From the NCBI RefSeq assembly GCF_014284155.1, contig NZ_JACOFZ010000008.1, positions 62,001 to 126,000 on the forward strand: DNA of 64,000 nt, read 5' to 3'. The DNA is from Affinundibacterium nitidum. GTDB lineage: Bacteria; Pseudomonadota; Gammaproteobacteria; Burkholderiales; Burkholderiaceae_D. A model generated the notes under the pieces. That model made no database searches, was not told the origin of the DNA, and worked only from the letters and a program-made list of their open reading frames with translations. Shown piece by piece: positions 32,698-52,929 of this stretch (its first letter is position 1; every line of letters begins with the position of its first letter). A program made the translations under genes and the position numbers.

Positions 32698-34206
32698 CTA
32701 CATTGCCTTACATGTTGCTGCGATGAATTCCTCATGTGTTGGCATCACATCGACGCACTTACGTATGGTTTTTTGCACTTGATCTAGGAAGTAAGCAATA
32801 TCTTCCTTACTACGTTGATCGACCAAAGGATGGTAAGACTCGGCTCGCAAACCTTGTCCATGCATGACCTGCAACCAGCTGGCGTCAGCAAATAGCTCTT
32901 CACCAATGCGGAAAATACGACCATGTGAACGATATAAATCGATACGCTCTTGTACGTCGATTGGCACTTCCATGTTTTTGCAATAGGACCAGAACGCGGA
33001 GCCTTCACGCTCATTGAGCTTGTAATGCATGATCAGGAAATCGCGAATGCGTTGGTATTCCTCATCATTTTGGGCATTGTAAGTATCAATATCGACTTGA
33101 TTAAAGCCGCGATCGGGGAACAAACTAATCACACGCATGATCGCCGTTTGCACCATGTGGATACTGGTCGACTCTAAAGGCTCCATGAAACCGCCTGCCA
33201 AACCTATGGCGATACAGTTTTTATTCCAAGCCTTTTTACGCTTACCCGTCGTAAAGCGAATATGGCGAGGTTCTGCCAAAGCCTCACCATCAAGATTTTT
33301 CATCAAGATAGCTTGTGCTTCATCGGCACTCATAAATTTACTGCTAAATACATGGCCATTACCCGTGCGGTGTTGCAAAGGAATGCGCCATTGCCAACCT
33401 GCGGTATGGGAAGTTGAACGCGTGTACGGCAACAATGGTCCAGCCGAAGCGCAAGGTACAGCGATCGCGCTATCTGCCGGTAACCAATGGCTCCAATCTT
33501 CGTAGCCGGTGTTGAGGGTTTTCTCAATCAGCAAACCTGCTAAACCTGAACAATCAATAAAGAGATCACCCTCGATACGCTCACCGTTTTCCATCACCAG
33601 CGATTCAATGAAGCCATCCGCATCGCGTACGACCACATCGACAATTTTCCCTTCGGTTCTTTGTACGCCTTGCTTCTCGGCTTTGCCACGCAAATACTTC
33701 GCATACAAACCAGCGTCGAAATGGAAAGCATAAGAGATATCGGCCAAAGGCGAGTTCGGCATATCTTTCGGTGGCCGCATAAATTTGTGATGACGCGGCG
33801 CTACGGTGTTAATCGAAAAGTGTTCTAGATCAGGCGCTTCGCCCAACTGATACATCTTCAACCAATACTGGTAAAACTTCGCCAGAATTTGATCACGACC
33901 AATCAAACCAAAACCGTGGATATACGAGTCACCCTGTTTACCCCAATTCACGAACTCAATGCCGAGTTTAAACGTCGCCTGTGTTTGGCGCATAAACTCA
34001 TCTTCATCGAGATCGACCAACTGATTGAAGGCGCGGATGCTTGGAATCGTTGCTTCGCCAACACCAATGGTGGAGATCGCATCGGATTCTACTAATCGCA
34101 CACGATGGCCTTGCGGTAGTACGCGAGAAAAAGCAGCGGCGGTCATCCATCCGGCTGTACCGCCGCCAACGATAACAATAGTTTGAAGGGCTTGTTGCGC
34201 TTGCAT
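32698..34206 (-). CDS. Flavin-dependent halogenase-like protein (tryptophan halogenase family), copy 1
   Basis: 502 residues with the signatures of flavin-dependent halogenases: the FAD motif GGGTAGW (14-20), the lysine K80 equivalent to the HOCl-binding Lys of PrnA (in ATFKLGIEF), the WQWRIP motif (271-276) that fits W-x-W-x-I-P, and the Glu in EPLESTSIH (345). All catalytic residues are present, so halogenation is possible. Related proteins next to TonB receptors are known, and at least one brominates indole in vitro, but their natural substrate is not known to me. It follows the ABC ATPase gene by 23 bases, so it should be made together with the sugar importer. Confidence 0.9.
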   Translation of the reverse strand: MQAQQALQTIVIVGGGTAGWMTAAAFSRVLPQGHRVRLVESDAISTIGVGEATIPSIRAFNQLVDLDEDEFMRQTQATFKLGIEFVNWGKQGDSYIHGFGLIGRDQILAKFYQYWLKMYQLGEAPDLEHFSINTVAPRHHKFMRPPKDMPNSPLADISYAFHFDAGLYAKYLRGKAEKQGVQRTEGKIVDVVVRDADGFIESLVMENGERIEGDLFIDCSGLAGLLIEKTLNTGYEDWSHWLPADSAIAVPCASAGPLLPYTRSTSHTAGWQWRIPLQHRTGNGHVFSSKFMSADEAQAILMKNLDGEALAEPRHIRFTTGKRKKAWNKNCIAIGLAGGFMEPLESTSIHMVQTAIMRVISLFPDRGFNQVDIDTYNAQNDEEYQRIRDFLIMHYKLNEREGSAFWSYCKNMEVPIDVQERIDLYRSHGRIFRIGEELFADASWLQVMHGQGLRAESYHPLVDQRSKEDIAYFLDQVQKTIRKCVDVMPTHEEFIAATCKAM

Positions 34207-34229
34207 CTGCTGTCTTTCAAAAAACGTTC

Positions 34230-35306
34230 TTACAATCTTTGTTCTGTTGCGGGATCAAACAAGGAAACACGATGCCCGTCGATGCGGAAGCGAACCGTAC
34301 TGCCGAGTTCGAACTGCTGAGGCTCATTAACGATCATCGAAATCGTTTGTCCACCAAGGTCCAACCACAACACGAGATGATTTCCCATCGGCTCTACCAA
34401 AACCACACTGCCATGCGCATCACCATTCGAATCAAGATGAATGTGCTCGGGACGCACACCCATGGTCACTGCCATTTTTTCACCAGCGATGATAGAGATC
34501 GGCGCTTTCAAAGCGTAGCTCGCTAAGGACACTTGTAGCTTATCCGAAGTGAATTGCTGTTGTACATCGAGATGTCCAGCAATGAAATTCATTGCTGGCG
34601 CACCCAAGAAGCCCGCCACGAATAGATTTTCAGGGCATTCATACACGGTTTCTGGCGTGCCGATTTGTTGAATCTCGCCAGCCTTCATCACCACAATCCG
34701 TGTCGCCAAAGTCATCGCCTCAACTTGATCATGCGTGACATAGATCATCGTTGCCTTCAAATTTTGATGCAGCAATTTCAGTTCACGGCGCAAGCTAGAA
34801 CGGAGTTTGGCATCGAGATTGGATAAGGGTTCATCAAACAAAAACACGCCCGCTTCACGCACCAAGGCACGGCCAATCGCCACCCGTTGTCGCTGTCCAC
34901 CCGATAAAGCTGCAGGCTTACGTTGCAGTAGCGGTTCGAGATGCAACATCTCAGCCACTGTAGCGATACGACGCGCGATCTCTTGCTTCGGTGTGCCACT
35001 AATACGCAAACCAAACGACATATTTTTCTCGACCGTCATAGTTGGATACAAGGCATACGATTGAAACACCATACCGATATTGCGCTCGCTAGGGTCAGCC
35101 CAGGTCATATCGTGACCACCAATTTCTATACTGCCCTCATTGGCATCAATCAAACCCGCAATCGCATGCAAAAGCGTCGACTTGCCACAACCAGAAGGCC
35201 CAAGCAAAACCAGAAATTCGCCCTCAGCCACAGCAAGATCCAGCCCACGCAGAATCGCGGTCCCGCCCAAGGTGATTCCAAGATTTTTTATGCAAACATT
35301 CGACAC
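34230..35306 (-). CDS. CUT1 sugar ABC transporter ATPase (MalK/UgpC type)
   Basis: 358 residues starting at GTG 35306 with AAGGA six bases upstream. Walker A is GPSGCGKST (36-44), the signature LSGGQRQRVA begins at 134 and Walker B is VFLFDEP (154-160). The C-terminal ~120 residues form the regulatory OB-type domain of MalK-like ATPases (GVRPEHIHL). It energises the two permeases encoded upstream. A 333-base gap with two long palindromic repeats separates it from the second permease, an unusual break in such an operon. The halogenase-like gene follows directly. Confidence 0.93.
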   Translation of the reverse strand: MSNVCIKNLGITLGGTAILRGLDLAVAEGEFLVLLGPSGCGKSTLLHAIAGLIDANEGSIEIGGHDMTWADPSERNIGMVFQSYALYPTMTVEKNMSFGLRISGTPKQEIARRIATVAEMLHLEPLLQRKPAALSGGQRQRVAIGRALVREAGVFLFDEPLSNLDAKLRSSLRRELKLLHQNLKATMIYVTHDQVEAMTLATRIVVMKAGEIQQIGTPETVYECPENLFVAGFLGAPAMNFIAGHLDVQQQFTSDKLQVSLASYALKAPISIIAGEKMAVTMGVRPEHIHLDSNGDAHGSVVLVEPMGNHLVLWLDLGGQTISMIVNEPQQFELGSTVRFRIDGHRVSLFDPATEQRL

Positions 35307-35350
35307 TTATGATCCTTCTTTCTTGCTGTCCAATTCAAACCGCGCGGCGA

Positions 35351-35457
35351 TAAATGCCGCAGAAATTCAATGCTGGGGATGCAGTGCAAGGTGCAAAACA
35401 CAGCAATACTCAAGTATTGCGAGGCTTTGTAACGAAGCAATGCGCCCCAACATTGGA
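35351..35457. repeat. Palindromic repeat, copy 1
   Basis: A 107-base element beginning TAAATGCCGCAGAAATTCAA and ending GCGCCCCAACATTGGA. Its ends are mutually inverted (CAATGCTGGGG against CCCCAACATTG) and its middle has CAATACTCAAGTATTG, so it can fold into a long stem with an inner hairpin. It lies 170 bases from copy 2 and shares most of its sequence. It holds no credible gene although short frames run through it. Confidence 0.85.
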
Positions 35458-35520
35458 CTATTCGACGTTGATATTCCCTATTGTTCGATTTCAAAATTGC
35501 GACAACTATCATCAAAACTA

Positions 35521-35643
35521 TAAATGCCCCAGAAATTCAATGCTGGGGATGCGGTGCTAGGCGCAAAGCACAGCAATACACAAGTATTGCGAGCATTTGC
35601 AACAACGCAATGCGCCCCAACATTGGATTTATGGGGTATTTAT
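35521..35643. repeat. Palindromic repeat, copy 2, with extended outer stem
   Basis: The 107-base core (35521-35627) matches copy 1 with about a dozen differences. Here the flanks also pair: ATAAATGCCCCAGAAAT at the left against ATTTATGGGGTATTTAT at the right (15 of 17 positions), so the whole 124-base unit is one near-continuous inverted repeat. Its right end coincides with the stop codon of the second permease gene (35640-35642). The shape resembles a MITE or a REP-type extragenic palindrome. Confidence 0.8.
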
Positions 35644-36524
35644 TTGATGGCACCTGCGGCAATCCCCCTCACAAACCATCGCCCAGAAACAAAATACAAA
35701 ACCAAAGGCACCAACGATGTCAGGATCGTTGCCGCCATATTCACGTTATATTCACGGGTACCGGTCGTGGTATTGATCACATTGTTGAGCTGCACCGTCA
35801 TCGGCAAATTTTCTCGCCCTGCGAATACCAAACCCAACAGATAGTCATTCCACACACCCGTCACTTGCATAATCGCCGCTACCACAATAATCGGTGCTGA
35901 CATAGGCAAAACGAGCTGGACCAAGATGCGCCAAAAGCCACCGCCATCGATACGCGCCGCTTGAAACAATTCATGTGGAATACCTGCGTAATAATTGCGG
36001 AACAGTAAAGTCATCATCGGCATACTGAAAATCGTATGGACAATCACAATGCCCGGCAAAGAACTATACAAATCGACTGCCGCCAAAATGCGCACTAGCG
36101 GAAAGATCATGACCTGGACGGGAATAAAGGCGCCGACCATCAAAATACCGAATAAGAGATTCGCACCACGTGGTCGCCAAAAAGATAGCGCGTAGCCATT
36201 CAAAGCTCCGAGCAAAATCGGAATAATCGTACTTGGAATCACAATCGCCAAGGAGTTACTGAAGCCGCCGCCGATGCCCTCGCAGGCAACACCTGTACAG
36301 GCACTACTCCATGCGGTAATCCACGGTTCAATGGTCCAAGTATGAGGCAAGGAAAACAGATTCCCTAAGCGAATCTCGTCCATGCTTTTCAGCGAGGTCA
36401 CGACCATCACGTACAAAGGCAGCAAGAAAAAGAGCGCAGCACTGCCCAAGAACGCATACAAGCCTAGGCGGGCAACAGGCAGACGACGCGGCTTTCGCAC
36501 TTGTGGTGTGAGCATCTGATTCAT
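35640..36524 (-). CDS. Sugar ABC transporter permease (MalG type)
   Basis: 294 residues with six predicted membrane helices and the EAA-like loop FQAARIDGGGFWRILVQLVLPMSAP that docks on the ATPase. SLKSMDEIRLGNLFSLP and the C-terminal SGRWFVRGIAAGAIK are typical of the second CUT1 permease. Its ATG overlaps the end of the MalF-type gene by four bases (36521-36524). The transporter as a whole has a binding protein, two permeases and an ATPase and probably imports glucan-derived oligosaccharides. Confidence 0.92.
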   Translation of the reverse strand: MNQMLTPQVRKPRRLPVARLGLYAFLGSAALFFLLPLYVMVVTSLKSMDEIRLGNLFSLPHTWTIEPWITAWSSACTGVACEGIGGGFSNSLAIVIPSTIIPILLGALNGYALSFWRPRGANLLFGILMVGAFIPVQVMIFPLVRILAAVDLYSSLPGIVIVHTIFSMPMMTLLFRNYYAGIPHELFQAARIDGGGFWRILVQLVLPMSAPIIVVAAIMQVTGVWNDYLLGLVFAGRENLPMTVQLNNVINTTTGTREYNVNMAATILTSLVPLVLYFVSGRWFVRGIAAGAIK

Positions 36525-37399
36525 ACTGCGCGCCTCCGGCTTTTCGCATACACGTAGGGAGCTAGTAGCGTCAGTACTGGCACTAGCATCATGATGGCGG
36601 CTGCAGAAGCGAGCGCGATATTTGCTCTACCGAATAAATGGTCCATGATAAATTTGGCGGGTACTTCACTGGCGGTCCCCGGCCCCCCTTGAGTCATCGC
36701 CACGACGGAATCGAATAACTTAATGGCAGCTGTACTCAATAACAAAAAGACCGTTGCCATGGTCGGCGCCATCATAGGAATGACAATCGACACGTACACA
36801 CGCCAAGTAGGAATGCCATCAAGACGTGCGGCTTTCCAAATTTCTTCATCAATGCCGCGCAGGCCGGCAAGCATCATCGCCATCACCAAACCCGCCGCTT
36901 GCCAGACAGTGGCGAGAACAATGGTGTACATCACTTTGTCTTGATCGATAATCCAATCAAATGCGAAATCGGGGAAGCCCATTTGTCGCACTGCGTTTTC
37001 TATGCCTATGCCGGGTGTTAATAGCCACTGCCAAACAAGACCAGTGGCGACGAAAGACATGGCATAGGGATACAGAAACACAGTGCGCAGCACACCTTCC
37101 GCTTTGACTTTTTGATCGATGAATACCGCCAACAGAAAGCCGATAATCATACTGGCGAGTATAAACAGCACAGCGTATAAAGCGAGGTTCTCTATCGACA
37201 GCATCCAGCGTTCGTTATCAAACAGCTTGCTGTACTGTGCAAAGCCAACATAGACATCGGTGGGCAAACTACGTGAACTCGTCAATGAAACGCGAAACGA
37301 CCACACCACAGTACCGATATACGCGACCAACACCACCACCGCCATCGGTGTCAGGGCCGCGAATGGGATCAGCTTTCTGGCAAAGGTTTTGAGTTGCAT
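36521..37399 (-). CDS. Sugar ABC transporter permease (MalF type)
   Basis: 292 residues with six membrane helices; the EAA loop reads IWKAARLDGIPTWRVYVSIVIPMMAP. The N-terminus PFAALTPMAVVVLVAYIGTVVWSF and QGGPGTASEVPAKFI near the C-terminus match UgpA/MalF-like permeases without the large MalF periplasmic loop. It lies 21 bases after the binding-protein gene and overlaps the MalG-type gene, fitting a standard importer operon. Confidence 0.92.
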   Translation of the reverse strand: MQLKTFARKLIPFAALTPMAVVVLVAYIGTVVWSFRVSLTSSRSLPTDVYVGFAQYSKLFDNERWMLSIENLALYAVLFILASMIIGFLLAVFIDQKVKAEGVLRTVFLYPYAMSFVATGLVWQWLLTPGIGIENAVRQMGFPDFAFDWIIDQDKVMYTIVLATVWQAAGLVMAMMLAGLRGIDEEIWKAARLDGIPTWRVYVSIVIPMMAPTMATVFLLLSTAAIKLFDSVVAMTQGGPGTASEVPAKFIMDHLFGRANIALASAAAIMMLVPVLTLLAPYVYAKSRRRAV

Positions 37400-37420
37400 G
37401 ATCGTGCGCGTTTAAGTCGT

Positions 37421-38713
37421 TTACTCTTTCAGCGCATTGACGATGCTCTTCTGTACTTTCTCGACTGGCATCTTGGTATTCCAATACGCCGTCAAGATAT
37501 CTTGAAGTGCACCATTTTGATCGGGCGTGAGATACACCTCACTAATACCCATTTGCCGCGTTTTGTCTTTCATGATGGCCATGCCCGCTTGTGCACAGAC
37601 ATCCATACTCGAGGTATCGACATCACTACGAATCGGAATCGAACCTTTGAGCTTGTTAAAGTCCAGTTGCACGCTAGGCGTCATTAAAGTTCTAGCCAAC
37701 AGTTTTTGCGCTTTGACGACAGGTTCGGCGCTCGTCTTCGGAAACACGAAAGCATCCCCTTGAATGAGGTAAGGCGTATTCGACGAGAACCCGGCAATAC
37801 AACCGAAATCTTTACCTGCCACTTGTTTGGCAGCAGCAAATTCGCCTTTGACCCAATCGCCCATGATCTGCACGCCGCCTTTGCCACTGATCAACAGCGC
37901 TGTTGCATCATTCCAATTGCGTCCTGGAGAACCTGCATCGATATACGATTGCATGCGCTTAAAGGCCAGCAATACGTTTTTAAAGGCATCTGAATTGATT
38001 GCCTTTGCATCACGATCACGGATCACTTTCAAATACAAATCTTTACCGCCAACATTGGCCAACATCGCTTGAAATACGATGGTCTCTTGCCAAGCTTGAC
38101 CGCCATGGGCGAGAGGAATCATGCCCGCTGCTTTCAGTTTATCGAGTGCTGCAAACAGTTCATCGACACTAGCTGGCTCTTTAGCAATGCCGGCTTTCTT
38201 GAAGGCAGCTTTGGAATACCAAAACCAGGTTTGCATATGCAAATTGACTGGGACAGCATAGTAGTGGCCTTTAATGCGAATCACGTTCAACACCGTTTCG
38301 GGCAAGACTTTATCCCAACCTTCGGCGGCAGCGACATCGTCCATATTGTTCAACATACCCTGCTCAACTAAGTCGAGGAATTGTTTGGTGGTATTGAACT
38401 GAGCAGCGGTGGGTGCGTTGCCACCGACGATACGATTAATCGCGATCGCGCGTGCTTGATCAGCGCCTGCGATAGCGGTATCAACCCATGTGCCGCCGGC
38501 CTTGCGATAGGCTTCTGCAATCGTTTTGACTGCAGCGGATTCGCTACTTGATGTCCACCAATGCATGACCTCGGCTTTTGCAGGTGCTGCAGCTTTCGCC
38601 GCTTGCGGTGCTGCCGCTGCTGACGCTATGGTTGGCATCGCGAAGAATGCGCTGAGGATTGCGCCGCGCAGGGCGATAGAAAGCTTCGTACGAGAGTACT
38701 GCAATAAAGGCAT
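37421..38713 (-). CDS. Sugar ABC transporter substrate-binding protein (family 1)
   Basis: 430 residues with a signal peptide ending near PTIASAAAA. The mature protein starts AEVMHWWTSSSESAAVKTIAEAYRKAGG and continues with AAQFNTTKQFLDLVEQGML and GKGGVQIMGDWVKGEFAAA, as in CUT1 glucose/cellobiose-type binding proteins. It should capture a sugar in the periplasm and deliver it to the permeases encoded next. It is the first gene of the operon, with its own promoter at 38966-38995, and is divergent from the GH16 gene. Confidence 0.92.
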   Translation of the reverse strand: MPLLQYSRTKLSIALRGAILSAFFAMPTIASAAAAPQAAKAAAPAKAEVMHWWTSSSESAAVKTIAEAYRKAGGTWVDTAIAGADQARAIAINRIVGGNAPTAAQFNTTKQFLDLVEQGMLNNMDDVAAAEGWDKVLPETVLNVIRIKGHYYAVPVNLHMQTWFWYSKAAFKKAGIAKEPASVDELFAALDKLKAAGMIPLAHGGQAWQETIVFQAMLANVGGKDLYLKVIRDRDAKAINSDAFKNVLLAFKRMQSYIDAGSPGRNWNDATALLISGKGGVQIMGDWVKGEFAAAKQVAGKDFGCIAGFSSNTPYLIQGDAFVFPKTSAEPVVKAQKLLARTLMTPSVQLDFNKLKGSIPIRSDVDTSSMDVCAQAGMAIMKDKTRQMGISEVYLTPDQNGALQDILTAYWNTKMPVEKVQKSIVNALKE

Positions 38714-38965
38714 TTTGTCTCCTTTGGATCACTCGGAATATGATTCTCGAGTCTGTCCTTATTTGAATCCTCGCGCTCGCTCAGCGATACACGGGCTTCT
38801 TTGTTTTCGATTTCTTTATTTTCTAATTCGTCTCTGCGCAGTTTTGTATCTTGCAATAACCAAACCGCACATAAAAAACTTTGATCAGAATCTCGCCAAC
38901 TTCGATCTGCTTGCTCTCATCAAAACTTTCTATCATCACTGTTTGCTCTGCGGAAACGCTGGCTG

Positions 38966-38995
38966 ACTATAGCACTCGCTGTTTTTGAGTGTCAA
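38966..38995 (-). promoter_or_regulatory. Sigma-70-like promoter of the ABC importer operon
   Basis: On the minus strand TTGACA (38990-38995) and TATAGT (38966-38971) are 18 bases apart, a strong match. A degenerate half-site of the operator (GGAAACG within 38949-38963) lies just downstream of the -10 element. The leader to the binding-protein ATG is about 245 bases. Confidence 0.65.
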
Positions 38996-39087
38996 CGCGC
39001 ATTCCCCGCAGGCGTCTTCGCTCCCCATGAATTCAGACGAACAACGATCACCTAACAACTATGACATTCAAAAATACTCAGAATTCA

Positions 39088-39117
39088 TTGACAGCGATTT
39101 TTGCTTAATGCCATACT
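39088..39117 (+). promoter_or_regulatory. Sigma-70-like promoter of GH16-DUF6445
   Basis: TTGACA (39088-39093) and CATACT (39112-39117) are 18 bases apart on the plus strand. The LacI-type operator begins ten bases after the -10 element, the same layout as at GH3. The GH16 ATG at 39282 is about 155 bases further on. Confidence 0.5.
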
Positions 39118-39127
39118 ACACGATAAA

Positions 39128-39141
39128 TGGAAACGATTCCA
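39128..39141. promoter_or_regulatory. LacI-type operator in the ABC/GH16 divergent region
   Basis: TGGAAACGATTCCA differs from a perfect palindrome at one symmetric pair. It lies downstream of the GH16 promoter and about 130 bases upstream of the opposite ABC promoter, so it may control GH16 directly and the importer less so. The 568-base region 38714-39281 holds no gene. Confidence 0.72.
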
Positions 39142-39281
39142 TTTATTCGCTGGTGATTTTCATTTTTTTTCAATTAGCGACGCAAGATTGTCACACGCAA
39201 GGCCTGAACACCTAGGAGTGAACTAGGCCTGCTCCCCCCATGTCGACTTTGTTTGCCGCCTTTCACTTTGGAGTCTCGAAC

Positions 39282-40190
39282 ATGGTAGCTACCCGATCAC
39301 ACCTAGCGCAACTGATAGCTGGTGTCACCCTCATTCTGTGCAGCGCTTGCGGTGGCGGCTCTTCTAGCGCCAGCACCCCAACCACGCCGACATCGACTAC
39401 ACCAACCACCACACCAACAACACCAACTCCTGCCCTGCCCGCCGGCGGTATTCCCGTCAATTGGAAACTGGTATGGGCCGATGAGTTCGACCGTGATGGT
39501 TTGCCCGATAGTAGCAAATGGGATTACGACACGGAACGCAATAAAGCAGGCTGGTTTAATAATGAATTGCAGTACTATTCACGTGCCCGTTTAGAAAATG
39601 CCGCCGTCAGCAAAGGCGTACTGACGATTACCGCACTCAAAGAAAAATTAACGACCGCCACCGACTACGGTGGCCAATCCTACACTTCTGCACGTTTGCT
39701 GTCGCGCGGCAAAGCGAGCTGGACCTACGGCTTCTTTGAGATTCGCGCCAAACTACCTTGTGGTTTAGGCACCTGGCCAGCGATCTGGATGCTGGGTACG
39801 AAAGGCGCCTGGCCTGATGATGGCGAGATCGATATCATGGAACATGTAGGCAAAAACAAAGGACAAATTTTAGGCAGTGCCTATAGCAACTACTACAACT
39901 GGGCTAACGGCACTGGCAATACCAAAAGCACGACAGTGGCTGACGCCTGTGATGCTTTCCATAACTATCAATTGTATTGGGACGCTGATCAATTGGCGAT
40001 CGGTGTCGACGGCAAGTATTACTTCCAGTTCGTTAATGCTAAAACAGGCGACTATAAAAAATGGCCATTCGACCAGCCGCAATATCTCTTATTGAATCTG
40101 GCGATTGGTGGCGATCTTGGTGGTGCGGTCGATGATAGTATCTTTCCGAGCAAATTCGAAATCGACTACGTGCGCGTATATCAAAAGTAA
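39282..40190 (+). CDS. GH16 beta-glucanase (laminarinase-like), probable lipoprotein
   Basis: About 302 residues from the ATG at 39282, chosen because GGAG lies eight bases upstream; an ATG at 39240 has no such site. The signal ends at LCSAC23, a somewhat unusual lipobox, followed by a Ser/Thr/Pro linker to residue 55. The GH16 core has WKLVWADEFD and the catalytic EIDIME motif (E182 nucleophile, D184, E187 acid/base), the E-x-D-x-x-E form typical of beta-1,3- or mixed-linkage glucanases. It likely cuts polymer at the cell surface. DUF6445 follows by 37 bases. Confidence 0.93.
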   Translation: MVATRSHLAQLIAGVTLILCSACGGGSSSASTPTTPTSTTPTTTPTTPTPALPAGGIPVNWKLVWADEFDRDGLPDSSKWDYDTERNKAGWFNNELQYYSRARLENAAVSKGVLTITALKEKLTTATDYGGQSYTSARLLSRGKASWTYGFFEIRAKLPCGLGTWPAIWMLGTKGAWPDDGEIDIMEHVGKNKGQILGSAYSNYYNWANGTGNTKSTTVADACDAFHNYQLYWDADQLAIGVDGKYYFQFVNAKTGDYKKWPFDQPQYLLLNLAIGGDLGGAVDDSIFPSKFEIDYVRVYQK

Positions 40191-40227
40191 ATCGAAAAAA
40201 TAGATCAAGAAATAGGCAAAATACCTG

Positions 40228-40962
40228 ATGCTAAATCCACCCTCAGCGCAGTTCAATCCCCAGGCGAAGATGACGGTATTGCCGCTGTTTGAGGGCCATC
40301 AGTGTGTGGTGATCGACGATTTTCTGCTCAATCCAGAGGAGATCGTCGACTTCGCACGCCAAGGTCAATTAAGATTTCGCTACGACAAGGATAATTACTT
40401 TCCCGGACTAGAAATGGATATGGGGCGCCACTTTGCAATACAGTTTGAACAGTTCTTTATGCTCAAGCTACGCCCCTATTTTCAAGTCAGACGAAATTTA
40501 GGCAGCGCCTGTCGCATCTCAATGACGACACTACAAGCTGATCAGCTTCATCCTTTGCAAAGACTCTGTCATCGTGATGCAGAAACTCTGCCTTCGGGCA
40601 TGGGCATCGGTGCTTCGGTAGTTTATCTATTTGATCGCCCTGAGCTCGGCGGCACCAGCTTTTTTCAGCCGGCGCAAGACTTGGATCAAGTACGTGATTT
40701 TCTGCGACTCGCAGCGCAAGGCAACAACACGCTGCTCACTGAACAAATTCAGCAAACATCCAGTTACTGCTATCAATCGAATCCATGGTTTGAACTAAAA
40801 CAAACGGTCGCAGCAAAATGGAATCGTGCGATTTTCTACGAAGGCACAGTCTTTCATGCAGCACACATTAGCGATGCGACTTTGCTAAGCGAACAAGTGG
40901 CACAATCACGACTGTGTTTGAATGCGTTTTTTCGATTTAAGAAGCAAGCTGGTGTCAATTAG
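40228..40962 (+). CDS. DUF6445 family protein
   Basis: 244 residues. Sequences such as VVIDDFLLNPEEIVDFA, YFPGLEMDMG, LHPLQRLCHRD, GIGASVVYLFDRPELGGTSFF and KWNRAIFYEGTVFHAAHI suggest a double-stranded beta-helix like that of 2-oxoglutarate/Fe dioxygenases, with H-x-D (CHRD) and a later His as possible metal ligands; I base the name DUF6445 on this pattern. Genes of this family are known to occur with halogenase-like genes and TonB receptors in glycan loci. It is downstream of GH16 under the same operator. Its 3' end overlaps the convergent next gene by eight bases. Confidence 0.7.
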   Translation: MLNPPSAQFNPQAKMTVLPLFEGHQCVVIDDFLLNPEEIVDFARQGQLRFRYDKDNYFPGLEMDMGRHFAIQFEQFFMLKLRPYFQVRRNLGSACRISMTTLQADQLHPLQRLCHRDAETLPSGMGIGASVVYLFDRPELGGTSFFQPAQDLDQVRDFLRLAAQGNNTLLTEQIQQTSSYCYQSNPWFELKQTVAAKWNRAIFYEGTVFHAAHISDATLLSEQVAQSRLCLNAFFRFKKQAGVN

Positions 40963-41407: not shown

Positions 41408-41466
41408 TATGGGCCCCTAATAATGTGTTTGCAGACGAAGGCAAACAAGCATAGAACTTCATTTCA

Positions 41467-41514
41467 CACTTAACTGAATACTTAAATTTGCACTTAACTT
41501 AGCACTTAATTTCT
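41467..41514. repeat. Four tandem 12-base units across a stop codon
   Basis: Units start at 41467, 41479, 41491 and 41503, each with CACTTAA or TACTTAA followed by five variable bases. The array covers the stop codon (41499-41501) of the DNA-repair gene on the minus strand and is in phase with its codons, so slippage or a point change could add or remove four residues. Confidence 0.7.
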
Positions 41515-43403: not shown

Positions 43404-43420
43404 TTCAGCGGAAACCCAGT

Positions 43421-43606: not shown

Positions 43607-43695
43607 AAGGATTCCTTTCAGAGGTGAAATACTTTTATATAATTAATGAACAAAGTACTGACACCAATATAGTCTGAAAAATCAATTTGAAAAGA

Positions 43696-43730: not shown

Positions 43731-43753
43731 AGCGTTGCAAGATAGGTCGAAAA

Positions 43754-45655: not shown

Positions 45656-45766
45656 ACGCGTATCGTTAATATTGAATGGGAGGTCATTGCTAAGGCATTC
45701 GACTCGGAATGCCTGTACAAGTTCCATTGCTCACGATAAGGGATTTAAGACAATCTGAGGCAATTC

Positions 45767-46702
45767 TCAATTAAAGATATCGCGTTTCGCGGTTTGACTA
45801 ATCGCTAAGATAGCGGGGTCATTGAGCTTACGCTCAGCAGTGATCACATAAATTTCTTCGACGATACTCGGCACTTCACCGATGACGACAACTTTGTGCT
45901 GAGCACAAATCTCTTTCTCCATCGCAGTCGGTGCCAGAAAAAAACCAGCCCCAGCACGACCAAAGGCTTTCATGAGAGCTCCGTCATCAAATTCACCAAC
46001 GATAGTGGGATGCAAAGCGCACTGTTCCATCCAGCGCAAGATCTTGGCCTGAACTGCCACATCTTCACCGGGGATCAAAAACGGGGCGTGCGTTAAACAT
46101 TCTGGAAATTTTCCGGTGTGTTTTTTTGCCAATGCAGCGGTGCCAAATACTGTTAAACCACATTTTCCAAGCAGATGGTTATACGCTCGCACGCTTGTTT
46201 GGTTGCCCATAGGTCGATCCGCAATGATGACATCCAAGCGATGTAGCGCAAGTTCGCCTAACAAAAGGTCAAGACGGCCTTCACGACAATTTAAACGCAC
46301 GGGTTCTTCAAGCTCTAAGGCTGGTTGTAACAGGCGATAGGCGATCACCTTCGGAACGGCATCGGCAATGCCAACGCGGAAAGTACGACGACGTGCTTGT
46401 AGATGATCGCGCAGAGCATCAAGCAACTGATCGCCGGTATTGAAAATGTCATCTGCGTACATCAGTATGCGTCGGCCAGCATCGGTCAATTCGATGTTAC
46501 GACCGTTCTTTTTGAATAGCTCAACGCCAAGACTTTGCTCGAATTCATTGATCTGTCCACTCACAGCGTGCGCGGTTAAATGCAACTGCTCAGCCGCTTT
46601 GGCAATACTACCAGTCTTAGCGACCATCCAGTAATAACGCAGGTGCTTAAAATTCAATGCGGGCAAAGCGAGATCCTTTCTGTTCACACGTTTCTGTTCC
46701 AA
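45767..46702 (-). CDS. NhaR-like LysR-family regulator
   Basis: 311 residues. The N-terminal LysR helix-turn-helix reads LNFKHLRYYWMVAKTGSIAKAAEQLHLTAHAVSGQINEFEQSLGVELF, very close in pattern to NhaR, the sodium-responsive activator. The effector-binding domain follows from ~95. No nhaA antiporter gene is adjacent here, and the neighbours (M28 peptidase, DUF2062) give no target. The name refers to family likeness only. Confidence 0.85.
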   Translation of the reverse strand: MEQKRVNRKDLALPALNFKHLRYYWMVAKTGSIAKAAEQLHLTAHAVSGQINEFEQSLGVELFKKNGRNIELTDAGRRILMYADDIFNTGDQLLDALRDHLQARRRTFRVGIADAVPKVIAYRLLQPALELEEPVRLNCREGRLDLLLGELALHRLDVIIADRPMGNQTSVRAYNHLLGKCGLTVFGTAALAKKHTGKFPECLTHAPFLIPGEDVAVQAKILRWMEQCALHPTIVGEFDDGALMKAFGRAGAGFFLAPTAMEKEICAQHKVVVIGEVPSIVEEIYVITAERKLNDPAILAISQTAKRDIFN

Positions 46703-46745
46703 ATACCTTTGTAACTTGCGATAGGAACACAGCCTTGAGCGGATT

Positions 46746-47324
46746 CTACATCATCGCTTTGTTAATTTGCTCAGTCCTATGTTTTCTTTGTGTTTGCAGG
46801 CAGCGCAAACTCCAAAAACGACAAACGCGCCAAACCAATTGCACCGAACAATAACTTAATGCCGCTAATGACAGAGACAAAATCAGCATACCAACTAACC
46901 AAGGTGTTCCAAGTGATCCCACCCAAGTAATCCACGCTTGTAGACTGGTCAGCAATTGAGTCCAATCGGTGACTGGCAACGCTGGCAATTCATGCCACTG
47001 GCCCGTACCGCTCAAGCTTTGACCAATGCCGTACGCCAGCATATAGATCGGCACTATCGTAATCGGATTCGTCAAAAATGTGCCGATGATCGCCATCGGC
47101 AAATTCACGCGTAACAAACAAGCCAAGGTCACCGCAGCGATCATCTGCAGCGGCCCTGGTATCATGCCGCACAAAACGCCAATCGCTAAGCCCAAGGCTA
47201 CCGCTTCGCGCTCCACATCCCATAAGCCTGGTCTATCAAGGCGATGGGTAAAGCGACGACTAATCGGGATACGCTCTATGGTCTCCCGAGTCGGTAGTAC
47301 CCTTCTTAAAAACTTTTTTGGCAT
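46746..47324 (-). CDS. DUF2062 membrane protein
   Basis: About 192 residues from the ATG at 47324; GTG at 47336 is in frame. The family pattern is clear: MPKKFLRRVLPTRETIERI, LWDVEREAVALGLAIGVLCGMIPGPLQMIAAVTLACLLRVNLPMAIIGTFLTNPITIVPIYMLAYGIG. Several helices make it an inner-membrane protein. The function of DUF2062 is unknown; other members stand near glycosyltransferases or cell-envelope genes. Confidence 0.85.
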   Translation of the reverse strand: MPKKFLRRVLPTRETIERIPISRRFTHRLDRPGLWDVEREAVALGLAIGVLCGMIPGPLQMIAAVTLACLLRVNLPMAIIGTFLTNPITIVPIYMLAYGIGQSLSGTGQWHELPALPVTDWTQLLTSLQAWITWVGSLGTPWLVGMLILSLSLAALSYCSVQLVWRVCRFWSLRCLQTQRKHRTEQINKAMM

Positions 47325-47398
47325 ACATACTTTCACTTCACAAATCGTGGTGCCTGAGCTCTTTCAGGCTCAACACCGCACAAGCTCAAGAGCAACAA

Positions 47399-47905
47399 TT
47401 AGTAATGTGTCTCGAGAATGTTGACAGGCTTAGAGGCACTGTAATCACGCTGTTGCATCTGATGGTGCTCTAGCTCAGAACTCAACTGCGCTGACAGAGG
47501 CGTATCGCTAATCGCCACTAAATCCAAGGTCCAACATTGCAATGCGCGATCGATCAAGACCGCTTCACCGTCACTGAGTCTATCGTCGGCATCGACAATC
47601 GCTAACATGATGCGTAGCAGCTGCTTACGCAATTGCGGGTCCTGAATCTCTTCCAAAATACTGTCGATCGCAGGATTTGCCATCTCTATCTGGCCATAGT
47701 GAGAGCCATCCGCACATTGCAACATGTCTTCACACAAGTGATGGACGATTTTCTCAAATTGCTCTTCCGAGAGGCCCAGGCGCTCCACTATGCCATAACG
47801 ATGCACGACATCTAACTCTGATTTGTCTAGTCCACCATCGACCAACATCGACAAGGCTACAATACGAGCCATGGCTTCTGGGCTGTTCACACGATACGTT
47901 CTCAT
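47399..47905 (-). CDS. TerB-like protein
   Basis: 168 residues. The N-terminal MARIVALSMLVDGGLDKSELDVVHRYGIVERLGLSEEQFEKIVHHLCEDML and LLRIMLAIVDADDRLSDGEAVLIDRAL show the helical TerB/DjlA fold with acidic loops (DGGLDKSE, DADDRLSDGE) that may hold metal ions. TerB proteins are linked to tellurite and stress responses; no other ter genes are present, so tellurite resistance is not implied. It lies between hpf and DUF2062. Confidence 0.75.
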   Translation of the reverse strand: MRTYRVNSPEAMARIVALSMLVDGGLDKSELDVVHRYGIVERLGLSEEQFEKIVHHLCEDMLQCADGSHYGQIEMANPAIDSILEEIQDPQLRKQLLRIMLAIVDADDRLSDGEAVLIDRALQCWTLDLVAISDTPLSAQLSSELEHHQMQQRDYSASKPVNILETHY

Positions 47906-47967
47906 GACATTTCTTTCTTCGATTGATTAAATTTAATTAGTATCTCGCTACTCTTGCTCTGCAAATG

Positions 47968-48333
47968 CTATTTCTCACTTAGTTCTTCTTCCTCTTCATA
48001 AACTAAATGATTCGCCTTAACATGGGCATGCTCTTTGAAGCGACCAATACGTTTTGCGAGAAGTTGTTCTGCACGATTGATCGCCTTATCGATCGCAATA
48101 TACAAATCAGCTTCCGTGTCATGAATGACGATCTGCTGCTTTTTCGCCAGAGGGATTTGAATCAAACAGCGTTTATCTTCACCACCACGCGGACCGTTCA
48201 CATCAGAGAGGCGAACTTTAATTGTTCTGACCTCGTCCAATGCCCAGTCTGTGGCAAACTTAAGGCGGCGATAAGTGTGCTCACGCATTCCATCAGTCAA
48301 TTCAAAGCCACGCGCTTGTATGTCGATGTTCAT
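47968..48333 (-). CDS. hpf: Ribosome hibernation factor, HPF/RaiA family (short form)
   Basis: 121 residues from the ATG at 48333 with GGAG seven bases upstream; a GTG at 48336 is directly before it. The fold is shown by MNIDIQARGFELTDGMREHTYRRL, VRTIKVRLSDVNGPRGGEDKRC, IVIHDTEADLYIAIDKAINRAEQLLAKRI. It lacks the dimerising C-terminal domain of long HPF. HPF-type proteins bind the 30S decoding region and stall or pair ribosomes in stationary phase. The usual rpoN/ptsN neighbours are not seen here. Confidence 0.88.
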   Translation of the reverse strand: MNIDIQARGFELTDGMREHTYRRLKFATDWALDEVRTIKVRLSDVNGPRGGEDKRCLIQIPLAKKQQIVIHDTEADLYIAIDKAINRAEQLLAKRIGRFKEHAHVKANHLVYEEEEELSEK

Positions 48334-48552
48334 CACATTTCTCCATTCGTTTAAGTGATGGAACTAGTGTAGGTACGAATGAACTTAGATTCAAATCGAT
48401 TAATCGAGGCGGAAAGCTCGAAAAAGTCGATGATTGATGAAAGCGTTTGAGAACGGATGACTTGGAAAGAAGATGCAAGAGGAGCTTAGGCTCACTCTTG
48501 CTGGGGGATTTGCTGAACTAGCTGAATTAAGGTGCTGACTAATGCTAGTAAT

Positions 48553-50067
48553 TTATGCAGCTTCGCGTGCCATGCAGTTGGCACGTATATAGTCGAGATG
48601 AGTTGGCATGGCATCGACGCATTTACGAATCACCATTTGCGTGTTGTACAAGAAACCAGCGATTTCATCTGGACTACGCTGATCGACAACAGGGCTGTAA
48701 CGACGTGGTCGCATGCCTTGTCCATGCATCACTTGCAGCCAACTATCTTCGGGAAACAGCTCTTCATTCTCACGCAAAATACGGCCATTGCTCGCGAATA
48801 AATCTAACTTAATCTTCAGACTTTCTGGCACATCCATTTCACGACAATACTTCCAAAATTCACTATCATCGCGCGAATTGACTTTGTAGTGAAGGATGAG
48901 GAAATCGCGAATTTGCGCGTATTCTTTATCAGTCAAGCGGTTGTAGTTATCGATATCGACTTGATCAAATTCTTTATTTGGGAAGAAAGTCAGCAGACGC
49001 ATCAAACCCGTTTTCACCATATGAATACTAGTGGATTCTAAAGGCTCCATGAAACCACCAGACAAACCTATCGCTACACAGTTTTTATTCCACGCTTGTT
49101 TGCGTTTGCCCGTTGTGAACTTAATCTGACGAGGCTCCGCAAGCGCCCTGCCATCGAGGTTGTTCAACAAAATTTGTGTGGCTTTGTCGGCGTCCATATA
49201 CTTACTGGAAAATACATGGCCATTACCAATGCGGTGCTGTAAAGGGATGCGCCATTGCCAGCCTGCTTCATGCGCAGTAGAGCGAGTATGTGCTTGCGCA
49301 GATCCGCCGAGAGCGCAAGGCACTGCAATGGCAGTATCACAAGGTAACCAATGACTCCAATCTTCGTAGCCCGTGTGTAGAGCCTGTTCAATCAAGAGTC
49401 CTACCATGCCTGAACAATCAATGAAAAAGTCACCTGCAACGATCTCACCATTTTCCATTTGCAGAGACTCGATAAAACCATCGTTTTCTCGCAAATTGAC
49501 TTTGACAATCTTTCCCTCAGTACGCTTCACGCCACGTTGTTCTGCATAGCGTCGTAAATACTTGGCATATAAACCGGCATCAAAATGATAGGCGTATGAA
49601 AGATCGGAAAGTGGTGAATTCGGTAAATCGGGACGACCAACACTGAACTTGCCCAACATGCTGGCAACAGTATTGATCGAATAAGGCTCAAGACCACCAG
49701 CCTTTCCTAATTGATTCATCTTCAACCAATAATGGTAAAAGTTAGCCATCGGTTGATCACGCCCGACCGAACCAAAACCATGAAAATATTTGGTTCCATT
49801 CACACCCCAATTGACAAACTCAATTCCGAGTTTGAAGGTACCTTGAGTGTTACGCAGAAAGTCGTTCTCGTCTATCCCAAGATGCAAATTGAAATTACGT
49901 ATGCTTGGAATCGTCGCCTCACCGACGCCGATGGTTGAGATCATATCGGACTCGACGAGTCGGATGCGATGTCCGTTGGGTAGCAGCTGTCCCAAAGCCG
50001 CTGCACTCATCCAACCCGCTGTACCGCCGCCGACAATGACGATATCTTTAATTCTGTTATCACTCAT
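48553..50067 (-). CDS. Flavin-dependent halogenase-like protein (tryptophan halogenase family), copy 2
   Basis: 504 residues, aligned to copy 1 along its length and more than half identical by eye. FAD motif GGGTAGW (13-19), catalytic Lys K79 in GTFKLGIEF, WQWRIP (270-275) and Glu E344 in EPLESTSIH are all present. It lies 159 bases downstream of the large TonB receptor on the same strand, so it is probably expressed with it from the dual-operator promoter. Natural substrate unknown; known relatives next to TonB receptors act on free indole in vitro. Confidence 0.9.
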   Translation of the reverse strand: MSDNRIKDIVIVGGGTAGWMSAAALGQLLPNGHRIRLVESDMISTIGVGEATIPSIRNFNLHLGIDENDFLRNTQGTFKLGIEFVNWGVNGTKYFHGFGSVGRDQPMANFYHYWLKMNQLGKAGGLEPYSINTVASMLGKFSVGRPDLPNSPLSDLSYAYHFDAGLYAKYLRRYAEQRGVKRTEGKIVKVNLRENDGFIESLQMENGEIVAGDFFIDCSGMVGLLIEQALHTGYEDWSHWLPCDTAIAVPCALGGSAQAHTRSTAHEAGWQWRIPLQHRIGNGHVFSSKYMDADKATQILLNNLDGRALAEPRQIKFTTGKRKQAWNKNCVAIGLSGGFMEPLESTSIHMVKTGLMRLLTFFPNKEFDQVDIDNYNRLTDKEYAQIRDFLILHYKVNSRDDSEFWKYCREMDVPESLKIKLDLFASNGRILRENEELFPEDSWLQVMHGQGMRPRRYSPVVDQRSPDEIAGFLYNTQMVIRKCVDAMPTHLDYIRANCMAREAA

Positions 50068-50226
50068 GTTGATTCCTTCACCGTTGCGATGTTAGATGCA
50101 ATCTTCACTCGCAGTAGTGTACTCGTATAATAAAAAAGAGCCCAGTGCAGTCGATCGTAGACCAACGCACATGGACTCAAGGATGTTCGCTTTACACTGG
50201 AGAGCGCAGCGAAGATCAGTACCTAA

Positions 50227-52929
50227 TCAATAGTTAAAGCCAAATCGAATACCAAACATACGAGGTTCCACTGGTGCGTAGTTCATCTGAGCACCGACAC
50301 CTGATCCACGCCAGTATGCAGCTTTGCTATCCGTCGCATTACGTACATACAGCTCAGCATGCCAAGCGTCCTCTGGCGCATCCAAACGTACTGATGCATC
50401 TACCAATGCGTAGGCTTTTTGGAAGCGGCCAATGTGAGCGAACTCATCATTGCGTACATCGAAGTAAGCCTTATCACGCCAGTTCCATTTCACATACGGC
50501 GTCAACGCAAAGCCACTCGGTAAATCAAACTTCTGTGAGAAGTGCAACATCATCGTGCGACGCGGTGCGTTTGGCAAATTATTGTTAGTCACATCGTAAA
50601 GACGCTTACCGTTATCGGGGCCCAAGCCGTTAAACACTGGAGCGCATGGCGTCAAACCGAACTCTGTACGTGCGTCGCAATTGTAATCATCGCTGTATGA
50701 ACCGTAGTCACGAATCTTCGTATCGAGCAAAGTGAAAGCACCACCCACTTTAGCACCTGGCCATGGTTTGTAATCCCACTCCACTTCCAAACCACGAATC
50801 TTCGTATTACCTACGTTAATCGTACGCCATGTTTCATAGACGTCGCACTTCGGTTGATCAGCAGTACATGGTGCTGGCGGCACATATTTGCTAACGAAGT
50901 AAGTACCTGTTAATTGCTGATCTTTGTAGTTCATTGCAAATGCGACTGCAGACAAACTCAAAGTGTTATCGAGGAATTTACCCTTGTACCCTAATTCAAA
51001 GTTTGTCACGAGTTCAGGTTTGTAAGGCAAGAAGGTTTCCACGTTGGGTGAACCATCTGCACACTTACGCATATTTGGACCAGAGGCATCACCACCGCAT
51101 GCCAGAGTTCTGTCACCGAAACCACCGGCTTTATAACCTGTTGCCAATGCAGCATAAGCCATTTCGTTTTTGTTGATTTGTGTTTGCAAACCTAAACGCC
51201 ATGTGAGCTTATGCCATTTTTCGCTATGGTCATTCTTACTTGGTGTGCCATACAAATGGTAGGCTGCTGCGCTACCGCCTGGACCATAATTTAAGTCATT
51301 GCCTTGAGGCAGACGGTAACCTGGCGTGCCTGGTGTACCAGGATCGTAGCCGCCATTGTAGAACTCTTTCTGACCCCACCAGCCGCCAAGATTCAAACCG
51401 TCTTTATCTGTTTTGCTATCAGCACTAAAGCGTGCACCTGCCGTCGCTGTCCAGCTTGGTTGGAATTCCCAATCTGCTTGCGCGAAAATCGCTTTGGCGT
51501 CCACTTGGCGATTCGGTTGTGCGTAGAAAGCACCCGACGCTAAACCAACTGGCGCACGATACAAATCAACCACTTCATAGTTAATTTGATTTTTTTCATG
51601 CATCCAGAACAAACCGGCAACATATTTTAGATCGCCAATACGTTGTTTCAATTGCAGTTCATGTACGGTGGAGAGGTACTTAGAATCAACGGTTTGTTGA
51701 TACTGATCAGCCAATGGCCATGTACCCCAGTTGTTACCGCCCGCGATGCTTGGATGGTCTTGCGTAATTTGGAATGGCAAAGCCGCCATATTACCTTTGT
51801 CATTGTCATACAATTGGCTGCGGCGTTGATCTGCGAGCGCAAAGTTGTAGTCCAATGTCATATCTTTATCGACGTTCCAATTCGCACCTGCACGCAGTGT
51901 ACGGATCTTCATGTCTGTCATGCCTGGAACGTTGATTTTCAAATCAAAACGGCCCCATCCAGACGGACATGCATAACGAGTTCCCGCGACCGAATCACAA
52001 TCTTTAAACGCTGTACCACCCGCACTTGAATCTTGGAACTCTTCATATGTTGCGTGCAGCTTCAAGTCTTTATTAACTTTGTATGCAGCTGAGATACGTG
52101 CCGCCCATTCGTTTTGGTTAGTATAGTAATCGCTAGGATCAACTTTACGGTTCCAACGTTGAATTAAATCTGGAATACCATCTGGTTTCCATCCTTTAGA
52201 TGGGAGATTCGCTTCGCTAAAGTCTTGCATCTGGTTTGCGTAACCATCGCGTGTAACTTTGGTAAATGCGGCGCGTAAAGCGAACTCATCGTTCACTTTA
52301 ATGTTTTGCACCACATTCATTTGGCGCTTATTGTAATTGCCGATTTCGACTTCACTGCGACCGTAGTTGCCTGAGAAATCTGGCTTAGCGGAGATCACGT
52401 TGATCGTACCACCTGTAGAGTTACGACCGAACAAAGTACCTTGTGGGCCACGCAATACTTCAACTTGGTCAACGTCGAACATCAGTGCTTGTGCGCCCTG
52501 TGGACGTGGCGAATACAAACCGTCGACATGGAAGCCAACGGCAGGATCGCCGATTTCTGTTGTGTTACTTGATGTAATGCCGCGAATCGTCACTTGGATC
52601 GCAGAGTCATTCGTTTGTACGATCGTGACGTTCGGCACTTCATTGGCGAGATCTTTCGCGCTCGTCACACCGAGGCGACTCAAGCTATCTTGGCTAAAAG
52701 CCGTAACGGCCAAAGGCGTTTTCAATAAGGAAGTGGAATAGCGTGTCGCCGTAATATTTACTTCTTGAATTTGATCAGATTCTTTTTTCGCTGCCGCTTT
52801 CTTTGCATCGGCAGGCTCATTTGTTTTCGCTGCTTCTGCTTGCTGGGCATAGACAGGCGCATTCATCAAACCGAAGGCACTGGCAACGGCCACGCTCATC
52901 AGGGTTCGTTTTGTTTTCGGATGGAACAT
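50227..52929 (-). CDS. TonB-dependent receptor for glucan oligosaccharides (inferred)
   Basis: 900 residues with a signal peptide ending near NAPVYAQQ, then an Ala/Lys-rich spacer and a plug domain (IQEVNITATRYSTSLLKTPLAVTAFSQDSLSRLG, DQVEVLRGPQGTLFGRNSTGGTINVISAKP) and a 22-strand-type barrel ending in RMFGIRFGFNY with the terminal aromatic. The size and plug sequence match receptors found in carbohydrate-utilisation loci of Proteobacteria. A promoter with LacI-type operators on both sides precedes it, linking it to the glucanase genes 12-30 kb away. No SusD-like partner is present, as is usual in Proteobacteria. Confidence 0.9.
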   Translation of the reverse strand: MFHPKTKRTLMSVAVASAFGLMNAPVYAQQAEAAKTNEPADAKKAAAKKESDQIQEVNITATRYSTSLLKTPLAVTAFSQDSLSRLGVTSAKDLANEVPNVTIVQTNDSAIQVTIRGITSSNTTEIGDPAVGFHVDGLYSPRPQGAQALMFDVDQVEVLRGPQGTLFGRNSTGGTINVISAKPDFSGNYGRSEVEIGNYNKRQMNVVQNIKVNDEFALRAAFTKVTRDGYANQMQDFSEANLPSKGWKPDGIPDLIQRWNRKVDPSDYYTNQNEWAARISAAYKVNKDLKLHATYEEFQDSSAGGTAFKDCDSVAGTRYACPSGWGRFDLKINVPGMTDMKIRTLRAGANWNVDKDMTLDYNFALADQRRSQLYDNDKGNMAALPFQITQDHPSIAGGNNWGTWPLADQYQQTVDSKYLSTVHELQLKQRIGDLKYVAGLFWMHEKNQINYEVVDLYRAPVGLASGAFYAQPNRQVDAKAIFAQADWEFQPSWTATAGARFSADSKTDKDGLNLGGWWGQKEFYNGGYDPGTPGTPGYRLPQGNDLNYGPGGSAAAYHLYGTPSKNDHSEKWHKLTWRLGLQTQINKNEMAYAALATGYKAGGFGDRTLACGGDASGPNMRKCADGSPNVETFLPYKPELVTNFELGYKGKFLDNTLSLSAVAFAMNYKDQQLTGTYFVSKYVPPAPCTADQPKCDVYETWRTINVGNTKIRGLEVEWDYKPWPGAKVGGAFTLLDTKIRDYGSYSDDYNCDARTEFGLTPCAPVFNGLGPDNGKRLYDVTNNNLPNAPRRTMMLHFSQKFDLPSGFALTPYVKWNWRDKAYFDVRNDEFAHIGRFQKAYALVDASVRLDAPEDAWHAELYVRNATDSKAAYWRGSGVGAQMNYAPVEPRMFGIRFGFNY

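Follow-up and report, generated by a model that had tools for sequence, protein, structure and literature searches.

Why should a beta-glucan locus encode two flavin-dependent halogenases, and on what would these enzymes act? We addressed this question for a 64,000-nucleotide stretch of the Affinundibacterium nitidum genome (contig NZ_JACOFZ010000008.1, positions 62,001 to 126,000; hereafter, the window). The beta-glucan locus of this Undibacterium-like genome contains two halogenase genes (A and B) and one gene of the DUF6445 family, among genes for a TonB-dependent receptor, glycoside hydrolases (GH) and a CUT1-type ATP-binding cassette (ABC) importer. The answer that we favor, with a probability of about 0.4 for the statement as a whole, is an inducible tailoring module that acts on a tryptophan-bearing peptide or protein. 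Halogenase genes of this kind beside TonB receptors are a previously known association. The open full-text literature, with most subscription papers outside our search, offered no explanation for it, and DUF6445 was mentioned in no paper of that literature searched. The available text of PMC11337851 offers speculation on phage and Colwellia halogenase transcripts and on redox effects at virus-host receptors.

Sequence features and phylogeny of the halogenases

Halogenase A (502 amino acids; 32698..34206, minus strand) and halogenase B (504 amino acids; 48553..50067, minus strand) matched Pfam family PF04820 with E values of 1e-192 and 4e-194, respectively, and were 66% identical to each other. 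The catalytic residues that a first-pass annotation of the window had listed were present in both copies, comprising a lysine (Lys80 in A, Lys79 in B), WxWxIP (W271/W273 in A, W270/W272 in B) and a glutamate (Glu345 in A, Glu344 in B), and both copies also have GxGxxG. Across the 106 halogenases in our tree, the catalytic Lys and Glu were kept in 105, and the two Trp and the Pro of WxWxIP were found in 106, 105 and 90, respectively. The closest solved sequence was PDB 9luq (“Tryptophan halogenase”; E = 2e-156 for A and 2e-158 for B), a likeness by sequence, the quoted entry name being all that was taken from this record. The best-scoring named solved relatives were BrvH (6frl) and Xcc4156 (6y1w), with E values from 1e-141 to 3e-150, which have GxGxxG, Lys, WxWxIP and Glu like the window copies, and the free-tryptophan halogenases PrnA, RebH and PyrH scored below these two in PDB. 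The group-B free-tryptophan pattern [YHF]HG[LF][PE].YS, derived from the group-B motifs tabulated in the available part of PMC8269204 and testing for group B alone, occurred in none of the 106 tree halogenases, including both window copies. By sequence, then, both window flavoproteins are group-C flavin halogenases of the BrvH/Xcc4156 type with intact catalytic residues.

A tree of both copies had been proposed in the first-pass annotation as a check. In our quick tree without bootstrap (106 of 132 rows, near-duplicate loci and weak rows being left out), halogenases A and B formed sister clades (Shimodaira–Hasegawa-like approximate likelihood ratio test, SH-aLRT, 87) in a fully supported Oxalobacteraceae group, which also contained halogenases from GH13/GH31 loci. 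Because Massilia sp. CF038 has both halogenases, both predate the split between Undibacterium and Massilia. The mean identity of genus orthologues to the window protein was 83% for halogenase A, 86% for halogenase B, 87% for the receptor and 85% for the LacI-family regulator, and 79%, 74%, 73% and 59% for the binding protein, GH16, the ATPase and DUF6445, respectively (seven orthologues each, six for LacI). Protein identity was used in place of the ratio of nonsynonymous to synonymous substitution (dN/dS), which was dropped as a selection test since synonymous sites were saturated in most comparisons.

Short or degenerate halogenase-like proteins were also seen near full-length ones (L084:15268-16704, L142:7414-8460, L150:8532-9992, L103:6854 and L152:8399, in our locus numbering); that of L084 lacks both the catalytic Lys and Glu. 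These proteins could be non-catalytic subunits. The window’s own genome has, on another contig (C22:25078-26154), two weak PF04820 matches in one 477-amino-acid frame, far below the clear halogenases.

Predicted LacI-type regulon

The near-palindromic operator TGGAAWCGWTWCCA precedes GH3 (28172..28187), GH5 (31387..31402), the GH16 and binding-protein genes, between which it lies (39127..39142), and the receptor, where it occurs twice (53163..53178 and 53227..53242). The two receptor operators flank a promoter-like site on the minus strand (53190..53219; TTGACA-18-TATATT, 11/12, with TG before the second hexamer), the 53227 copy lying upstream and the 53163 copy downstream of it; promoter-like sites as a class were not more frequent than in shuffled sequence. 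Ten strand matches to the 16-base operator form with up to two mismatches were counted in the window against a shuffle mean of 1.05, and none of 100 shuffles reached ten. The genome has six perfect copies of the 14-base form: five lie in this locus and the sixth approximately 390 bases ahead of a gene for a GH5 protein with the carbohydrate-binding modules CBM6 and CBM35. With up to one mismatch, the operator gave 11 and 16 matches in the genome versus 5 and 3 for a reversed control pattern.

The receptor operators were found in all nine genus loci examined (the window, L074 and L198-L204). Although the receptor–halogenase B pair lies approximately 7.6 kb from the DUF6445 gene, with unrelated genes between, we count it in the regulon because its operators are conserved. 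Massilia sp. CF038 has degenerate operator copies (1–2 mismatches) before the receptor, DUF6445/binding protein and GH1, which is weaker evidence. In the window, the binding-protein start codon is 414 bases from the nearest operator, with no second site in the gap at up to three mismatches; in relatives such as L068 and L208, an operator is nearer the binding-protein gene. Palindromic operators before the transcription units, a regulator encoded in the locus (LacI family by Pfam and NCBIfam; 31496..32530, minus strand) and conservation in relatives are among the marks of a LacI-type glycan regulon, and they support placing both halogenases and DUF6445 in one predicted regulon, as the first-pass annotation had supposed.

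Hairpin between the receptor and halogenase B

The 900-amino-acid TonB-dependent receptor (50227..52929, minus strand; Plug and TonB barrel domains by Pfam, placed in a receptor tree) lies directly upstream of halogenase B. In the 159-base gap between them stands an intrinsic-terminator-like hairpin followed by a T-run (50138..50178, minus strand). A strong hairpin with a T-run was found at this position in genus loci and in Massilia sp. CF038; it was the clearest shared element of the aligned gap, and its stem stays long while its letters change. The consensus terminator scan listing did not include the 50138..50178 hairpin. Of 44 receptor–halogenase junctions, 29 had a hairpin; the figures were 43 of 275 for same-strand junctions that follow no receptor, 5 of 39 for those that follow a halogenase and 19 of 880 for shuffled sequences. 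This count left out the near-duplicates L143, L204 and L136, retained related genus loci and took its control from low-GC loci only. This pattern suggests a high output of receptor and a low output of halogenase, the latter perhaps by read-through or from a separate promoter.

DUF6445

The DUF6445 gene (PF20043, E = 3e-57; 40228..40962, plus strand) starts 37 bases behind the GH16 gene, in agreement with the first-pass annotation. Its product has the arrangement H115xD117...H210...R228, and these four residues were invariant in 30 of 30 DUF6445 proteins; HxD was present in all 46 proteins of a wider list, remote members included. HxD...H...R are the usual ligands of prolyl 4-hydroxylase (P4H)-like 2-oxoglutarate (2OG)-Fe(II) dioxygenases, and DUF6445 is thus a probable member of this enzyme class. 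Comparison with PDB and Pfam gave weak matches or none to dioxygenases already known.

Co-occurrence across genomes

DUF6445 was found in 25 of 299 genomes from the phylum and PF04820 in at least 55 (E 1e-40, five candidates scored per genome). PF04820 was present in 24 of the 25 DUF6445 genomes, including all 20 with a strong DUF6445 match (the window’s own genome among them), versus at least 35 of the 279 others (Fisher p = 7e-17 among the matches listed). Outside the own genome, 28 strong DUF6445 loci were collected; a halogenase lay within 2 kb in 19 and a halogenase or receptor within 5 kb in 25, and neither was within 5 kb in the other three (L086, L089 and L096). None of the five weak-family DUF6445 loci had a halogenase or receptor nearby. 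All 20 halogenases sampled from other genomes had a TonB-type receptor within 5 kb (18 by profile, two Oar-type). The sample was picked by hand, with one halogenase per genome and a preference for high scores, and covered 20 of the 35 halogenase-bearing genomes that lack a strong DUF6445 match. Receptors gathered in this analysis served to build the receptor profile, which missed those of the Oar type; these were added separately. Halogenase, DUF6445 and TonB receptor genes therefore co-occur far outside the genus, as the first-pass annotation had predicted.

The association also extends beyond beta-glucan: halogenases were found with GH13/GH31 genes, with PF10091/GH94 genes and at a GntR/UTRA-regulated receptor locus. 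Of the helper module for beta-glucan use that had been suggested, the common operators and the wide co-occurrence lend support to the module, and its restriction to beta-glucan is dropped. The receptor tree, likewise a quick tree without bootstrap, placed the window receptor and the GH13/GH31-locus receptors in different parts, from which it follows that the halogenase clade changed receptor lineage. Receptors shorter than 650 amino acids (tree set) or 700 amino acids (column comparison) were dropped, and the own-genome receptor set covered 29 of 35 regions. The own genome encodes 38 plug domains and four clear halogenases, three of which adjoin a receptor, the fourth being halogenase A. The nearest paralogue of the window receptor in this genome had no halogenase on its contig.

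A recurrent cassette had the order receptor-halogenase-SapC-Cupin_8-halogenase-DUF6445. Such cassettes (L088, L097, L098, L104 and L108) resemble the window in combining a receptor, halogenases and DUF6445, several of them with GH3, GH1 and LacI. Unlike them, the window genome lacks SapC and the window has no Cupin_8 match, whereas it adds the CUT1 ABC genes and has a receptor of another lineage.

Several further loci were recorded in passing. The nearest paralogue of the window receptor (L205:8506-11193, on C2) lies beside genes for an amine-oxidase-type flavoprotein and a squalene/phytoene synthase. A TonB receptor gene elsewhere in the own genome (L210, C32:83001-95000) has a Cupin_8 (JmjC-like) gene near it and no halogenase. 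In L080-L083 and L117-L122 of the genus, an orthologous receptor keeps DUF6445, with or without a halogenase of a second subfamily, giving a gain/loss series. In Hellea metagenome-assembled genomes (MAGs; L146-L149), loci with GH3, GH16, LacI and a receptor contain the halogenase-SapC-Cupin_8-halogenase cassette.

The ABC link and gene order in relatives

Halogenase A begins 23 bases behind the ABC ATPase gene, as the first-pass annotation had stated, and it stood behind the ATPase in all 11 ABC loci (the window, L068, L071, L073, L075-L078, L124, L131 and L208; L124 stops short of GH16). Seven further genus loci kept the order GH3-GH1-GH5-LacI-halA-ATPase-permease-permease-binding protein / GH16-DUF6445 as far as their stretches reach, several being cut at the ends and one genome (G001) having no called LacI open reading frame (ORF) between halA and GH5. 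The best orthologous loci were those of a 99% identical Oxalobacteraceae MAG, U. flavidum, U. fentianense, U. amnicola and U. baiyunense.

Massilia sp. CF038 and Massilia sp. H-1 showed a different arrangement, in which receptor-halB is followed by DUF6445 divergent from binding protein-halA-LacI-GH1; the reading frames of H-1 are broken. The DUF6445/binding protein-halA-LacI part of this arrangement is also present in Oxalobacteraceae bacterium UBA6018. The halogenase A match of CF038 starts at 10001, just after the end of the binding-protein ORF at 9992. The permease-ATPase block lies elsewhere in these three genomes, followed by LacI, with no halogenase match in the 20-kb stretches. The ATPase was therefore rejected as a fixed partner of halogenase A, because Massilia-type halogenase A stays behind the binding-protein gene without permeases or ATPase; the stable partners in the gene orders compared are the receptor, DUF6445, the binding protein and LacI.

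The unrelated loci L141 and L221 unite an Oar-type receptor, a halogenase, a PF10091 protein, a binding protein and CUT1 permeases, so the company of halogenase and CUT1 genes is recurrent; L218 has an Oar-type receptor, a halogenase and a PF10091 protein, and GH94 is present in L141. Pfam names the PF10091 domain Glycoamylase, and the family includes GH144 beta-1,2-glucanases. The ABC link had been called unusual. It recurs in the 11 ABC loci and these two unrelated ones, but the ATPase is not a core partner.

Remaining features of the locus

The importer is encoded on the minus strand by a CUT1 solute-binding protein (37421..38713; Pfam), whose Massilia orthologue directly precedes halogenase A, permease 1 (36521..37399), permease 2 (35640..36524) and an ATPase of the MalK/UgpC type (34230..35306; NCBIfam). 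The GH16 beta-glucanase gene (39240..40190; Pfam) is on the plus strand. Downstream of the LacI gene follow, all on the minus strand, genes for a GH5 family protein (29899..31341; Pfam), a GH1 beta-glucosidase (28472..29833; Pfam and NCBIfam), a GH3 with an ExoP C-terminal domain (25333..27876; Pfam), a major facilitator superfamily (MFS) transporter belonging to this GH5-GH1-GH3 gene run (23854..25173) and a second GH1 (22473..23897). Between permease 2 and the ATPase, a 108-base element occurs in two direct copies (35350-35457 and 35520-35627; 90%) 170 bases apart.

Discussion

The halogenases and DUF6445 may be read as an inducible module for oxidative tailoring that is linked to the uptake of glycans through TonB-dependent receptors. 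They are encoded in units with LacI-type operators common to the receptor, the hydrolases and the importer, and the terminator-like hairpin would give much receptor and little halogenase B. By analogy with the enzyme family, hypohalous acid would form from O2, bromide or chloride and FADH2 supplied by a general flavin reductase, and the Lys/Glu pair would direct it onto an indole-like group; DUF6445 would hydroxylate the same or a related substrate. That substrate would be a cytoplasmic Trp-bearing peptide or protein, and we place it first and a small Trp-derived compound second with low confidence. According to the available text of the BrvH paper, indole is brominated slowly, tryptophan is not accepted and another halogenase gene (42.7% identity) adjoins brvH; that of the Xcc4156 paper raises the suggestion that both BrvH and Xcc4156 act on a peptide. 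The word TonB occurs 0 times in the available text of these papers, and neither a LacI regulon nor an ABC link nor a DUF6445 partner was met there.

Could the enzymes instead make a small diffusible compound, such as a halogenated indole, a Trp-derived signal or a competitor-directed molecule, only during glycan feeding? We regard this as possible but doubtful. The operators imply inducible control, a product made during feeding in general would be consistent with the association with different glycans, and the top NCBIfam match of both halogenases is the small-molecule halogenase model CmlS, albeit far below its cut-off (39 and 51 bits of 900). On the other hand, unlike natural-product cluster halogenases, the window copies have no recognized biosynthetic gene among the window proteins scanned; no peptide synthetase, polyketide or tryptophan-pathway gene was seen among the Pfam-scanned neighbors, some neighbors being unscanned, and no dedicated exporter was recognized in the window locus, where the MFS transporter could nonetheless export. 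BrvH cuts both ways in the available text of its paper: it accepts indole, poorly, and its low specific activity made its authors doubt indole as the natural substrate.

Modification of the cognate receptor before export by the halogenase and dioxygenase is, in our judgment, quite improbable. A receptor is indeed a common neighbor in DUF6445 loci and lay within 5 kb of every one of the 20 hand-picked halogenases, and five columns enriched in halogenase-linked receptors (R63, T175, P183, G725 and R818) are shared by the window receptor, of which P183 (96% vs 32%) could in principle be hydroxylated. These columns, however, may merely reflect receptor kinship. No W, H or C column reached 70% in 53 halogenase-linked receptors, and at the two Tyr columns that reached 74% and 75% the residues of the window receptor are Phe and Lys. 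Among ten orthologous receptors, the four that have a second-subfamily halogenase beside them and the six that lack one differed consistently at five columns, none aromatic, and 13 of 20 Trp columns were invariant in all ten; these tests cover alignable positions, not unalignable loops, and the orthologue series concerns second-subfamily halogenases. One halogenase clade, moreover, is paired with two receptor lineages distant from each other. A receptor residue was one of the targets considered in the first-pass annotation; the column test, the orthologue series and the two receptor lineages together disfavor a conserved aromatic one.

Flavin monooxygenases have the fold of flavin halogenases, and the two flavoproteins might, with no halogenation in the cell, be FADH2 oxidases or monooxygenases whose targets are aromatic groups brought in with glycans of plants or algae. 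We hold this, too, to be improbable, as 105 of the 106 tree halogenases retain the halogenation pair of Lys and Glu and the neighbors include alpha-glucan and PF10091/GH94 families, whose glycans are not known to carry a common aromatic group. A point for it is that native substrates of group-C enzymes are not established in the available text of the BrvH and Xcc4156 papers.

Several observations also weigh against tailoring of a Trp-bearing peptide or protein. In neither the column comparison nor the orthologue series does an aromatic residue of the receptor go with the halogenase, and no precursor peptide is known, small ORFs not having been systematically searched. The CmlS match points toward small molecules. 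QhpG, LodB and GoxB act on proteins, QhpG modifying a Trp, and the window halogenases have a distant NCBIfam similarity to these maturases; they are not members of these families (19–31 bits versus cut-offs of 240–400), and the similarity may be fold-wide. Since the hairpin follows receptors of any kind, at 36 of 46 junctions, the terminator is a trait of receptors generally. Only one of 26 DUF6445 members matches a 2OG-oxygenase family (PF13640, E = 0.008), and DUF6445 has no sensible match among solved structures in PDB. DUF6445 also appears dispensable from the loci compared: two ABC loci with halogenase A (L131 and L208) have none beside GH16, and in six genus genomes (G004, G005, G011, G012, G018 and G030) it stands by a receptor with no adjoining halogenase.

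In favor of the Trp-bearing peptide or protein, the range of targets can be narrowed. The glycan is disfavored because the association spans beta-glucan, GH13/GH31, PF10091/GH94 and GntR/UTRA-regulated loci, and neither it nor an aromatic receptor residue is likely to be the substrate because the enzyme clade is kept while receptor lineage and glycan change. The glycan, free tryptophan and a conserved aromatic residue of the receptor are thus all improbable as the target. Our searches of the open literature brought up none of the following: the operators of LacI type, the dioxygenase-like residue pattern of DUF6445, the distribution of terminators, the tie between halogenase A and the binding-protein gene, the recurrent company of CUT1 genes and the negative results on the receptor. 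With a predicted repressor, mapped operators, two paralogues and a dioxygenase-like partner, the locus is a predicted inducible and compact setting for the question of group-C native substrates, and the conserved receptor–halogenase hairpin predicts a measurable expression ratio.

A broader generalization, which we consider unlikely, is that TonB-dependent glycan uptake in Proteobacteria commonly carries O2- and halide-dependent tailoring of proteins or peptides by group-C halogenases with DUF6445, Cupin_8 and SapC. If true, such tailoring could mark or protect the import machinery against agents that enter via receptors. It would also give BrvH/Xcc4156-type halogenases a native role and would mean that halogenation of a bacterial protein or peptide is widespread in primary carbon metabolism.

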